46,127 nucleotides of DNA, taken from positions 1 to 46,127 of the forward strand of contig JANXYM010000056.1 of the NCBI GenBank assembly GCA_025350045.1, in the 5' to 3' direction. The notes under the pieces were generated by a model. The model was not told where the DNA came from, did no database searches, and worked only from the letters and a program-made list of their open reading frames with translations. Position 1 is the first letter of the stretch, and every line of letters begins with the position of its first letter. Shown piece by piece: positions 18,847 to 32,443 of this stretch. This DNA comes from Methanomicrobiales archaeon. Lineage in GTDB: Archaea; Halobacteriota; Methanomicrobia; Methanomicrobiales; Methanospirillaceae. Both the position numbers and the translations under genes were made by a program.

Positions 18847-19524
18847 TTACGCTTTTGTCGCGATACCCTCTTTGACAATCTCGAATTCGAACGATGCACC
18901 TTCGGGCTGGGAGCGGTGTTTGACGAGCCGGGCCCGGCGGCGCCCCATGGTGTCCGTCTTTTCGACACGGACGATCACTTTCGAGATATGTTCGAGGGCA
19001 AAACCGCCAAGGCCGTACCAGGTGTTCTTGCCGGTATCCATGTACACCTGGTTGGTGATGATGACGGGAATCTCGTAGCGTTTGGCATATCCCAGCAGGT
19101 GGATCATCTGCCGGGTGAGTACCTGGATGGCATCCCTGCCCTTATCGAGATCGGTGCGGTAGAGTGCGGTGGCAGAATCCATTACGAGCAGTTGCGGCTT
19201 TTGTGCCTTGAGCACCTTCTCGACCTCGGCAATTACCTGGCCCTGGTGCTCGAAATCGATGGGTTCGAAGAGGAAGAGCTTGTCGGCAAGTCTCTCGGTG
19301 TCGTCTCCAGCGATCTGGCGGAACCGTTCGATCGAGAAACCCTCGGAGTCGATATAGGCAACTGCGTGTCCGGCCCTGAGGCAGGAGACTGCGGCAAGGA
19401 TGCACAGCGTGCTCTTCCCGCTCGCCGGTTCCCCGTAGAGCTGCGTGATGGTCCGTACCTCAAGCCCGCCGCCCAGCAGCTGGTCGAAGGCTGCATTCCC
19501 GCTGCTTCTTTTGTCCGTCTTCAT
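18847..19524 (-). CDS. radB: DNA repair and recombination protein RadB
   Basis: 225 aa, the RecA-core-only length typical of RadB, without the N-terminal DNA-binding domain of RadA. Walker A GEPASGKST at 31-39, Walker B LLVMDSATAL, and the RadB-like VIITNQVYMD segment are all present. RadB is a euryarchaeal RadA paralogue that assists recombination, with weak ATPase activity. It starts 3 bp after the larC stop, so the two are co-transcribed although functionally unrelated. GGAVEX-like ends and C-terminal basic residues (GRRRARLVKHRS) fit DNA contact. Confidence 0.93.
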   Translation of the reverse strand: MKTDKRSSGNAAFDQLLGGGLEVRTITQLYGEPASGKSTLCILAAVSCLRAGHAVAYIDSEGFSIERFRQIAGDDTERLADKLFLFEPIDFEHQGQVIAEVEKVLKAQKPQLLVMDSATALYRTDLDKGRDAIQVLTRQMIHLLGYAKRYEIPVIITNQVYMDTGKNTWYGLGGFALEHISKVIVRVEKTDTMGRRRARLVKHRSQPEGASFEFEIVKEGIATKA

Positions 19525-29022: not shown

Positions 29023-30564
29023 ATGTCCAACGTCACCACCCTTCTGGATGCAAAGAGTGTGCCTGCAGCAAAAGCCGCACTCATCTGTCCCGCCCGCAAC
29101 GAGACGTACAGTTACGGGAAACTCCGGGACGAGATGAACCGTATCGGGCAGGGACTTGTTACCCTGGGGGTGAAAAAGGGCGACCGGGTCTGTATCTACC
29201 TCGACAGCTCGCCCGAGTACCTGATCAGCTACTTTGCGTGCTGGCGGATCGGTGCGGTGGCAGTGCCGACCAACAGCGTGTACCGGGGCGAAGAACTGCT
29301 CCATGCGATCAATAATGCCGGTGCCGTAGCGGTGATCACGGATGCACAGGGTGCAGCCGTTGTCGATTCGATACGGGCACGGGCAAAAAACCTTGTACAT
29401 ATCATCTGCACGGCGGGATCCTGCACGGGATCCGTTGCCTGGGCCTCGTTTCCCGGGGCTCCCGCGGGAATGCGGGCGGTGAATTGTGCTCCGGATGCAC
29501 TCTGCCACATCCAGTACACTGCCGGCACCACCGGCAAGCCCAAAGGTGCGATGCTCTCTCATGGCAACTGGATGACCGCACTCGATGCGGAACGCGAAGC
29601 CCTCCGCATGTGCCCGGACGATGTGTATCTCGGTATCTACCCGATGGGTCATGTCGGGCTCTCGTGGGGACTTGCGATGCTCCGGGCGGGCGGCACGTAC
29701 GTGATGATGGAACGCTTCGAGCTCGAACGGTATCTCGCGCTTGCTGAACAGTACAAGGCGACCGTGCTGGCCGGTATGCCGCCGGTTATTCACTCGCTCA
29801 ACACCGCCCCGCCCGGCACGGAACAGCGTCTCTGTGGTGCCCGGGTGATCATCTCGGGAGGAGGCCAGCTCCTCCCGGCAGTCTGGGAAGCGTTTGACCG
29901 GCGGTATCAGATCCCGGTGGCGAATTCGTACGGTTTGTCAGAAACAATCGTGATCGGTTCCGGCACAACAACGCTGCCCGGATACCCGCACCTGACCAGG
30001 AATTACCAGAGTGTCGGTGTTGCAGTCGGGTACACGGAAGTGAAGATCGTAGATGCCATACATCCGGAGACCGAGATGGCATGTGCGAAGGCCGGGGAGA
30101 TTGCGCTCCGCGGCCCCTCTGTTGCACAGGGCTACTGGCAGATGCCGGAGGCAACGGCCGAGGTATTCTTAGACGAGGGCTGGTTCCTTACCGGGGATAT
30201 CGGGTATCTTGATGAGGAGGGCATCCTGTTCATCACGGACCGGAAAAAGGATATGATCATCATGTCGGGCTGGAAGATCTACCCGACCGAAGTTGAGAAC
30301 GTCATAATCCAGCACCCGGCAATCGCCGATGTTGCGGTATTCGGTGTTTCCGATGAGCGAAAAGGGGAAGTACCGATCGCTGCAGTTGTGCTCAAACCGC
30401 ACATGACCCTGAGCGAATCCGATCTTGAAACCTACTGCCGGGCTCATCTTGCCGGGTATAAGATTCCCCGAAAACTGATGATCGTGGATTTTCTCCCCCG
30501 CGTCCATGGCTGGAAACTGCTGCGGAGGGATCTCCGGGAACGGTTCGGCGGATCCGGTTCTTAA
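29023..30564 (+). CDS. AMP-forming acyl-CoA synthetase
   Basis: 513 aa, adenylate-forming class I. The phosphate-binding motif YTAGTTGKPKG lies at 165-175; SYGLSET (A5), GWFLTGDIGYLDEEG (A7), DRKKDMIIMSGWKIYPTEVE (A8) and the C-terminal lysine region PRVHGWKLLRRDL are intact. It activates a carboxylic acid to acyl-AMP and then acyl-CoA; chain length or aryl substrate cannot be inferred. Methanogens with such genes may use them for acetate or fatty-acid-like substrates from syntrophic partners or for lipid recycling. A TATA-like CCTAAATACC at 28974-28983 precedes. Single gene. Confidence 0.92.
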   Translation: MSNVTTLLDAKSVPAAKAALICPARNETYSYGKLRDEMNRIGQGLVTLGVKKGDRVCIYLDSSPEYLISYFACWRIGAVAVPTNSVYRGEELLHAINNAGAVAVITDAQGAAVVDSIRARAKNLVHIICTAGSCTGSVAWASFPGAPAGMRAVNCAPDALCHIQYTAGTTGKPKGAMLSHGNWMTALDAEREALRMCPDDVYLGIYPMGHVGLSWGLAMLRAGGTYVMMERFELERYLALAEQYKATVLAGMPPVIHSLNTAPPGTEQRLCGARVIISGGGQLLPAVWEAFDRRYQIPVANSYGLSETIVIGSGTTTLPGYPHLTRNYQSVGVAVGYTEVKIVDAIHPETEMACAKAGEIALRGPSVAQGYWQMPEATAEVFLDEGWFLTGDIGYLDEEGILFITDRKKDMIIMSGWKIYPTEVENVIIQHPAIADVAVFGVSDERKGEVPIAAVVLKPHMTLSESDLETYCRAHLAGYKIPRKLMIVDFLPRVHGWKLLRRDLRERFGGSGS

Positions 30565-30660: not shown

Positions 30661-31284
30661 ATGGATGTAAAAACCCGTATCCAGGACGTTCCCGTCAGCG
30701 GGAAGGTCAAGAAGCGGACCACCAGTATCGTGGGGCTCAACCTGCTCTTAGACGGTGGCTTTCCTGAGGGAACCCTCATCATGATTTACGGGACGCCGGT
30801 TGCCGGTGTTGATCTTGCGTCAAAGCAGTTCTGGAAGGCAGAAGGGGGCGAAGAGGGCACGTACCTCATCAACGAGGGGGATGTTGAAGACGGGATGACG
30901 GATACTACTGACCACCATCCCGAGATGTACATCCCCCTGATGGCGGGAGGCAGGATCGTTGTGGACTCGCTCTCCACGATCATCATCAAGTACGGTATTG
31001 ATGAAGCCCTTAAATTTTTACGACTGACCCGTGAAGTGATAAAGAAACGCGGTGCGAACATGTTGTTTGTTGTGTATACCGGTATCCATACACCTATGGA
31101 GATGACGAGGATCATGCGGGCATCCGATCTCGTGATCGAGTTCAAGACCGATATTCACCAGGCCGAGATCGAGCGTACGCTGGCCGTGCATAAGATCAAG
31201 GATGCAGCAGCCCCCCAGAGGCTGCTGCCCTTTATCATCACCGACAAGGGCATAGAAGCCTCAACCACTTCGCGTGTAGTCTGA
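30661..31284 (+). CDS. RecA/KaiC-fold protein lacking the Walker A lysine, paralogue 1
   Basis: 207 aa. The N-terminal GLNLLLDGGFPEGTLIMIYGTP is the KaiC/RadA-like lead into a P-loop, but the loop reads YGTPVAGVDLASKQF: the GK(S/T) of Walker A is absent. The Walker B position is GRIVVDSLSTII, and the C-terminal half (MRASDLVIEFKTD, RTLAVHKIKDAAAPQRLLPF) keeps the family layout. It probably does not hydrolyse ATP in the usual way and may be a regulatory or scaffold protein. A paralogue follows 475 bp downstream. A GGTGG site lies about 11 nt before the ATG. T8 follows at 31312. Confidence 0.82.
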   Translation: MDVKTRIQDVPVSGKVKKRTTSIVGLNLLLDGGFPEGTLIMIYGTPVAGVDLASKQFWKAEGGEEGTYLINEGDVEDGMTDTTDHHPEMYIPLMAGGRIVVDSLSTIIIKYGIDEALKFLRLTREVIKKRGANMLFVVYTGIHTPMEMTRIMRASDLVIEFKTDIHQAEIERTLAVHKIKDAAAPQRLLPFIITDKGIEASTTSRVV

Positions 31285-31311
31285 ACGGACCTGCCTGCAC
31301 ACCACGGTCTC

Positions 31312-31319
31312 TTTTTTTT
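31312..31319 (+). terminator. T8 terminator after paralogue 1
   Basis: Eight T about 28 nt after the stop of the first RecA-fold gene. It separates it from the second, which has its own TATA box. Confidence 0.5.
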
Positions 31320-31452
31320 AATTTCTGTACGGATTTCTGCGTGATTGGTGTGGCGTACCCCAATACGAAAAAATTGTGTACTGTTTTCCATTTACCGCAA
31401 TATTTCCCGTCTAAAAGAAAATTACGGCAAAATTTCATTTTTCTCAATTCGA

Positions 31453-31463
31453 CTTATTTATAT
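31453..31463 (+). promoter_or_regulatory. Strong TATA box upstream of paralogue 2
   Basis: ATTTATATATTTG is the best box A in this region and predicts a start near 31485. The 31285-31759 interval is otherwise gene-free: it contains the T8 run, this box and an open but non-coding-looking stretch. The predicted leader to the ATG at 31760 would be about 270 nt, unusually long for an archaeal message, so a small RNA or an earlier start is possible. Confidence 0.5.
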
Positions 31464-31759
31464 ATTTGAACAAACCGCTAAAAAAATTGAACACAAGATT
31501 TATCCCTACCTGTTCTCCACCTTGTAGTACACGCACAGAGAAATCCGAAGAAATTATTCCCCCGACAAAGATGTCAGGAATATCCCCATCCCGTGTTTTC
31601 CCACCGGTTTTTTGGGATGCCACCACCCTGTCCCGGGGGAGCGTGATCGGGCAGTTGGATTGCTTGACGTCAGGAGCCGTCTGCCCGTTATATGCACAGC
31701 ATTACCGGGAGCACGATACCATACTCATCCTTTCCGCACTGATCGGTCTTCTCGCTATC

Positions 31760-32443
31760 ATGGAAGTTACCGGCATATCATCTGTTGTCCGTGAATCTTC
31801 CGTCCCCGGTATGTCCCCGGCGACCGGTAAAACATCTCTTACGGAAATGTCGTCGGTTACCGGAAGGGTTAAGAAAAGGCCAACCGGCATTGTCGGCCTG
31901 AACCTCCTGCTGGATGGCGGCTTTCCGGAAGGTACGATGATCATGATCCACGGTACTGCTGTTGCTGGTCTGGAACTGGCAGCCCGGCATTTCTGTCACG
32001 ACCACCCGGATGAGGCCGGCTCATATGTTGTTCCTGAAGAGTGTATGGAAACGGCAGGAACGGCAGCGAAGATGAATCCCGCCCTGCTCCTCCAGAAGAT
32101 GATCGGGATGCGGATTGTGGTGGATTCCCTGTCCGATGTCATAGAACGGTATGGTATCGAGCAGGCGCTCTTCCTCTTAAGCATAGTCAAGGACGAATTA
32201 AAGAAGAACAATTCCAACCTGATGTTTATCGTTTATGCCGATGTGCACTCCCCCATGGATATGGCCAGGATCATGCGGGCATCCGATATCGTGATCGAGT
32301 TCAAGACCGATATTCACCAGGCCGAGATCGAGCGTACGCTTGCTGTACATAAGATCAAGGATGCAGCTGCCCCGCAGAGACTGCTGCCGTTTATTATCAC
32401 CGATCATGGCATCGAGGCTTCGACTACGTCGCGGGTGGTGTAA
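31760..32443 (+). CDS. RecA/KaiC-fold protein lacking the Walker A lysine, paralogue 2
   Basis: 227 aa from ATG 31760; ATG 31571 (with an extra hydrophobic stretch) and ATG 31847 (ACGGA site, length closest to paralogue 1) are alternatives. The P-loop reads HGTAVAGLELAAR, again without GK(S/T). Walker B is MRIVVDSLSDVI. From RVKKR to the C-terminus it aligns with paralogue 1 without large gaps; the last 65 residues are almost identical and a 74-bp DNA tract differs at one base (31108-31181 versus 32267-32340). The middle part is divergent. Function unknown; the pair could form a heteromer. Confidence 0.78.
   Translation: MEVTGISSVVRESSVPGMSPATGKTSLTEMSSVTGRVKKRPTGIVGLNLLLDGGFPEGTMIMIHGTAVAGLELAARHFCHDHPDEAGSYVVPEECMETAGTAAKMNPALLLQKMIGMRIVVDSLSDVIERYGIEQALFLLSIVKDELKKNNSNLMFIVYADVHSPMDMARIMRASDIVIEFKTDIHQAEIERTLAVHKIKDAAAPQRLLPFIITDHGIEASTTSRVV

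Follow-up and report, generated by a model that had tools for sequence, protein, structure and literature searches.

A KaiC-like protein family of Methanomicrobiales without the Walker A lysine, and a tandem paralogue with a probably converted C-terminal end

The Methanomicrobiales DNA analyzed here (the window, 46,127 nucleotides, all of contig C6 from a draft genome of 2.5 Mb) carries 2 neighboring genes, A and B, encoding KaiC/RecA-fold proteins without the Walker A lysine. The loss is shared by the whole order-wide family to which A belongs. A second finding concerns the end of gene B, where comparison of the sequences supports replacement of the last ~58 codons (~177 bp) by A-type sequence via ectopic gene conversion.

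The gene pair and its fold

The features of the pair are as follows.
30661..31284, + strand: gene A, KaiC-like protein of 207 aa lacking the Walker A lysine, over the Pfam KaiC cut-off, from an order-wide single-copy family
30790..30813, + strand: degenerate P-loop of A, GTPVAGVD, residues 44-51 (K to V, T to D)
30955..30975, + strand: Walker B of A, IVVDSLS, residues 99-105, with the Asp and the Ser in 85/85 A-type genes
31760..32443, + strand: gene B, tandem paralogue of 227 aa from the ATG at 31760, in an ORF open from the TTG at 31466, matched by Pfam KaiC
31952..31975, + strand: degenerate P-loop of B, GTAVAGLE, residues 65-72 (from the ATG at 31760)

Both reading frames are intact and are real ORFs. 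The start of B is likely the ATG at 31760, since this matches the related B genes of genomes G028 and G038. The original prediction had described a KaiC/RadA-type pair in which the expected GK(S/T) is missing, reading GTPVAGVD in A and GTAVAGLE in B, and this holds, with the Pfam KaiC family (PF06745) scoring 48.6 bits to A and 47 bits to B against a cut-off of 26.6, the match being mostly via the C-terminal half. A model of A gives VIA-align Z scores of 14.4 to KaiC, 14.0 to FlaH, and 13.3 to PH0284 (2dr3), and has a Foldseek match at E = 1e-6; it was built from 16 aligned close relatives with a mean pLDDT of 68 and is weak after residue 169, so 169-207 are uncertain.

A RecA-type fold together with a PF06745 score above the curated cut-off places the proteins in the KaiC/RadA (RecA-fold) superfamily. 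Of the marks of an active KaiC-like ATPase, the Walker B Asp (Asp102, 85/85) is there and the Walker A GxxxxGK[ST] is not. Nor are these circadian KaiC proteins, having one domain of ~190 aa and scoring 33-37 bits on the NCBIfam equivalog against a cut-off of 408. They do fit the description of an inactivated KaiC (iKaiC), a KaiC-superfamily domain with the catalytic P-loop residues lost. A functional P-loop elsewhere in the chain had been named as something that would overturn this reading; a scan of the full A and B chains for GxxxxGK[ST] found none, and the sole candidate, an off-register GKT in the N-terminal extension of B (GMSPATGKT), was rejected as a feature that the other B genes do not share.

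An old loss of the lysine

At E = 1e-10, a homologue of A is found in 138 of the 159 genomes of the class, nearly always as a single copy. The Walker A lysine is present in 0/85 A-type genes, its place being taken by V, L, I, C, M, S, or A, and the former S/T position is Asp or Glu in 84/85. Of the 2 P-loop glycines, the first persists in 82/85 and the second in 84/85; Lys178 (84/85) and Pro185 (84/85) are likewise conserved, and nearly all 85 end in ...STTxRVV, the C-terminus of the protein being near-invariant across the order. Because the lysine is never there and the acid almost always is, the P-loop loss is ancient, fixed, and kept, rather than a quirk of the A/B pair; the original prediction was right that the lysine is gone, and its absence is not special to the 2 genes.

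Full-length members from the order score at least 219 bits to the order profile, and the best matches elsewhere in the phylum score at most 100 bits; those of the outside matches that were read are also lysine-less. A tree that also held KaiC-like proteins with the ATP loop puts the order family in a clade of its own (100/100), nested within a cluster of lysine-less proteins (90/93), and for this sample and an unrooted tree the sequences suggest that the lysine was lost once, long ago. An AU test rejected the order family and the outside lysine-less proteins as one clade, but its set held one member twice and the outcome therefore carries no meaning.

Several other KaiC-like genes were seen along the way. 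At L161 (G000:C78, ~61.7-63.2 kb), a lysine-less KaiC-like protein of 278 aa with GDLGAGSNEF is encoded directly upstream of one with an intact loop (GTYGTGKT), and the 2 look like an inactive/active pair; adjacent PF06745 matches at a similar spacing also occur in G036 and G062. At L139 and L149 (G187, G195), a lysine-less KaiC-like gene adjoins one with an intact P-loop, and at L135, L136, L141, and L143 there is a Methanosarcina-type lysine-less KaiC gene with its own conserved neighbors, a PIN-domain protein and a MKQDLVRILKDIF protein. Close to a LarC-like gene, the window also encodes a RadB-like protein (18859-19494, − strand) whose P-loop, GEPASGKS, is intact.

The shared C-terminal tract and its conversion

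The segments concerned are listed here.
31108..31181, + strand: 74-bp tract of A, codons 150-174, one mismatch to 32267-32340
31108..31284, + strand: C-terminal segment of A, likely the donor type of the conversion, 155/177 identical to 32267-32443, with trees in agreement
32267..32443, + strand: C-terminal segment of B, A-like, likely the conversion recipient, containing the 74-bp tract at 32267-32340

That 74 bp of the 2 genes differ at one base was already claimed and is borne out by the alignment, the sole mismatch being at 31129, C in A and A in B. The accompanying claim that the rest is diverged, synonymous sites included, was checked as had been proposed, by following synonymous divergence along the pair: at shared residues, leaving out Met and Trp, the same codon is used in 22/23 cases within the tract versus 21/64 over codons 12-149. 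What did not survive is the end of the tract at 31181, as the homogenized stretch continues to the stop codons, beyond which similarity is gone (13/60). Hence, the 74-bp tract is no longer read as a conversion endpoint.

The other proposed check, on homologues in other methanogens, was made within the genomes of the class given above, and the related A and B genes give discordant trees. The tree of codons 12-149 unites the four B genes in a clade with 100/100 support, and a grouping of window A with window B is rejected (AU p = 1e-5). In that of codons 150-207, window B instead nests among A genes from its own species group (97/87), and the B genes come together in no bootstrap tree. The tails cluster by species group and the remainder by gene type, as conversion would have it, with the C-terminal AU test against one B clade alone borderline (p = 0.06). 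For these trees, a frame shift in gene A of G006 was bridged by a masked codon, in the alignment only. Orthologues with equal identity along the whole gene, which would speak for a different history, were not found. A permutation test on the identical A/B run of the window gives p = 0.0003 for all variable sites, the lowest value that 3000 permutations can yield; for silent sites only, p is 0.006-0.013. The A/B pair of G038 likewise gives p = 0.0003 (by scored segments), and nothing significant is seen when window A is compared with A or B genes from other species. The A and B genes of G038 also have a common TTQRVV end, absent from the other rows listed.

In DNA of codons 150-174, window B is 0.89-0.92 identical to A tails of related species versus 0.73-0.80 to B tails. 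Because the window B tail is closer to A genes than to B genes, the direction is taken to be from A to B. The donor may have been the neighboring A, which the tandem position favors, or an A gene carried by a close relative; the latter could hold since the C-terminal AU p is 0.06 and window A and B do not form a strongly supported pair in the tree of codons 150-207.

As to age, codons at shared residues differ over codons 150-207 in 18/55 cases between window A and B, and in 21/56 between window A and its orthologue in G008 (p = 0.69). With these alike, the conversion dates to roughly the time at which the species group diverged. The conversion that had been predicted as recent is therefore upheld by discordant trees, permutation, and tail likeness, and its recency only weakly, the age being near that of the species splits. 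In pairs of window A with other A genes, the tract (codons 150-174) differs at 4-5 of 20-23 codons and the rest at 10-19 of 31-33, versus 1/23 in the tract and 17/32 in the rest for the window A/B pair (binomial p = 0.06). The 74-bp tract is the least diverged part of the converted stretch, and a separate younger event within it is suggested.

Distribution of gene B and alternatives to conversion

B-type genes (HGTAVAG...) are found just downstream of A only in the window genome, G006, G028, and G038, which are 4 Methanoregula-like genomes; G019 carries a different duplicate and G027 has 2 A-like pieces. Chance or an assembly artefact was considered for the A-B tandem and rejected, since it recurs in 3 other independent assemblies (L039, L040, L044). 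In gene A of G006 (L056/L040), the reading frame shifts within a run of C near codon 186, a shift that is either real or an assembly error. Over codons 12-149, dN between B genes is well below dS, e.g., 0.22 versus 1.08-1.69 (G038, G028), and by this sequence measure the B genes are under purifying selection.

The tract might have been held identical since the duplication, with no conversion, by purifying selection acting on both the protein and its codons, or by an overlapping DNA or RNA signal. The near-invariant C-terminus lends itself to this, and codons 150-174 in related A genes have a synonymous sharing of 0.76 observed versus 0.67 expected from residue make-up. However, the same selection would be expected on the other B genes, which do not have the tract, and neither the tree discordance nor the permutation tests agree with it; no Rfam element is found. 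We regard this explanation as improbable. Selection on the C-terminal protein is likely, but alone it gives no codon identity between paralogues. No more credence goes to B being a decaying pseudogene-like copy whose A-like tail is incidental: B is indeed rare and fast-diverged (a branch of 0.66 changes per site), but its reading frame is open in 4 genomes and dN is far below dS, as given above. Hence, conversion of the tail of a constrained gene B is the reading we keep.

Neighborhood and spacer

2 further features are needed.
29023..30564, + strand: AMP-forming acyl-CoA ligase of 513 aa, 96 bp before gene A (Pfam AMP-binding 264 bits, AMP-binding_C 72 bits)
31285..31759, + strand: A-B spacer with TTTATATA (~31457-31464) and a partly conserved leader, from the sequence and an alignment of 4 spacers

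The ligase is at most 190 bp upstream of the KaiC-like gene, on the same strand, in 67/85 genomes. In many genomes metE is convergent downstream, with an aspS-like gene past it, and in 28 genomes a cdc48/VAT-like gene is upstream, the aspS-like and cdc48/VAT-like genes being named from sequence rather than by a family search. Ligase homologues at G025:C83:31634-33169 and G048:C1:860250-861785, both away from the KaiC-like gene, have one in-frame TGA each.

The position of the ligase raises the idea that the KaiC-like protein is its dedicated regulator, with one operon and one function, and in G060 and G085 the KaiC-like starts estimated by alignment even overlap the ligase stop. Yet genera g29, g5, and g2 have the ligase without the KaiC-like gene, and several f3 genomes, G052, and G026 have the KaiC-like gene without the ligase. 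Where the ligase is missing, the KaiC-like gene is still beside metE or the cdc48-like gene, so the synteny may just be old. Since the phyletic patterns differ, the ligase was rejected as an obligate partner and a joint function is not required; a dedicated regulator seems doubtful to us, if the least so of the alternatives weighed here.

In the spacer, the TATA-like TTTATATA stands ~300 bp ahead of the B ATG and, by its sequence, is likely a separate archaeal promoter for B. Some 70 bp past it, TACACGCA (window 31528-31535) is invariant in the A-B spacers of the 4 genomes. An RNA element under the tract or the spacer was considered and dropped, there being no Rfam match, and a genus-wide search with the spacer leader gave G006 alone, apart from a 24-bp match in G037 that looks like chance. 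In 4 genomes, the leader (31570-31760) includes a run of hydrophobic residues (DTI...LLAIMEV) in the reading frame of B; in G006 and G028 no ATG, GTG, or TTG precedes it in that frame. The run may anchor B in the membrane, or it may be untranslated.

Proposed function

A has been vertically kept across the order as a protein whose P-loop retains its glycines while the lysine gave way to a hydrophobic or small residue and the S/T to Asp/Glu, and the tail of B was overwritten by A-type sequence about when the related species of the clade separated. We propose that the proteins would be without KaiC-type ATP hydrolysis and would act as nucleotide-independent assembly or scaffold subunits of a signaling complex. 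Subunits would make contact through the conserved C-terminal half (strand, Lys178, Pro185, ...STTSRVV). B is diverged in its N-terminal half and ends in an A-like tail, and in this account it could enter a heteromer with A, repeated conversion between neighboring copies holding the common surface alike. Co-assembly may give conversion a selective benefit, and neutral conversion between adjacent copies may suffice too. Taken whole, from fixed lysine-less A and B through tail conversion to nucleotide-independent scaffold, we hold this account to be moderately probable.

In P-loop chemistry, the lysine and the Mg-ligand S/T hold phosphate, and an acid or hydrophobic residue there is expected to repel it. 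That A and B still bind ATP, by an unusual loop in which the Asp/Glu and conserved glycines hold metal or nucleotide otherwise, is thus rather unlikely, although nearly all members retain the length of the loop, the 2 glycines, and Walker B beyond what drift would leave. The Walker B Asp, along with a conserved acid close to strand 2, may still allow weak or unusual nucleotide binding. Lys178 aligns near the KaiC Lys that reaches into the neighboring subunit's ATP site. A more speculative idea, a little less likely again, is that the loop G-x-P-x-x-G-hydrophobic-[DE] is a functional replacement, with its acid pairing with Lys178 in a nucleotide-free ring or filament whose interface conversion keeps common. 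The nucleotide-independent scaffold is the reading carried forward.

Comparison with known systems

The family is an order-wide clean case of a KaiC-fold protein with fixed loss of the ATP-gripping residues that is yet seldom lost, and the conserved gene neighborhood of A makes its function testable. The archaeal single-domain KaiC-like ATPases PH0284 and PH0186 (PF06745) are alike in fold, Walker B, C-terminal GI(E/x) region, and Pfam match, whereas A and B have no Walker A lysine or S/T, a shorter middle, and scores below the NCBIfam KaiC equivalog cut-off. Other families of the phylum also have lysine-less KaiC-like proteins (e.g., L136, L141, L145), which mostly have Asp/Glu at the S/T position and a similar ...GIELETTTRVL end and share the 90/93 cluster; they nonetheless match the order family at no more than 100 bits and have other neighbors, with no ligase or metE. 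In archaeal signaling, the term iKaiC has been used for KaiC-superfamily ATPase domains judged possibly inactivated, in archaea including methanogens (PMC5847659, citing Makarova et al. 2017). The examples given in PMC5847659 are mostly fused to REC or HalOD domains, whereas the A family stands alone in its own order-wide neighborhood.

For the conversion, the precedent is mtrA-1/mtrA-2 of Methanomicrobiales, paralogues in one operon with conversion confined to one domain and the rest diverged (PMC4632066), and A/B is a second example, after mtrA, of one-domain conversion between adjacent paralogues in these methanogens. The protein is a different one, and conversion in mtrA is very long-lasting and widespread, whereas that of A/B is sporadic and in few genomes. 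Inactivated KaiC and domain-limited conversion of tandem paralogues are therefore both known kinds already, to which A/B is an added member.
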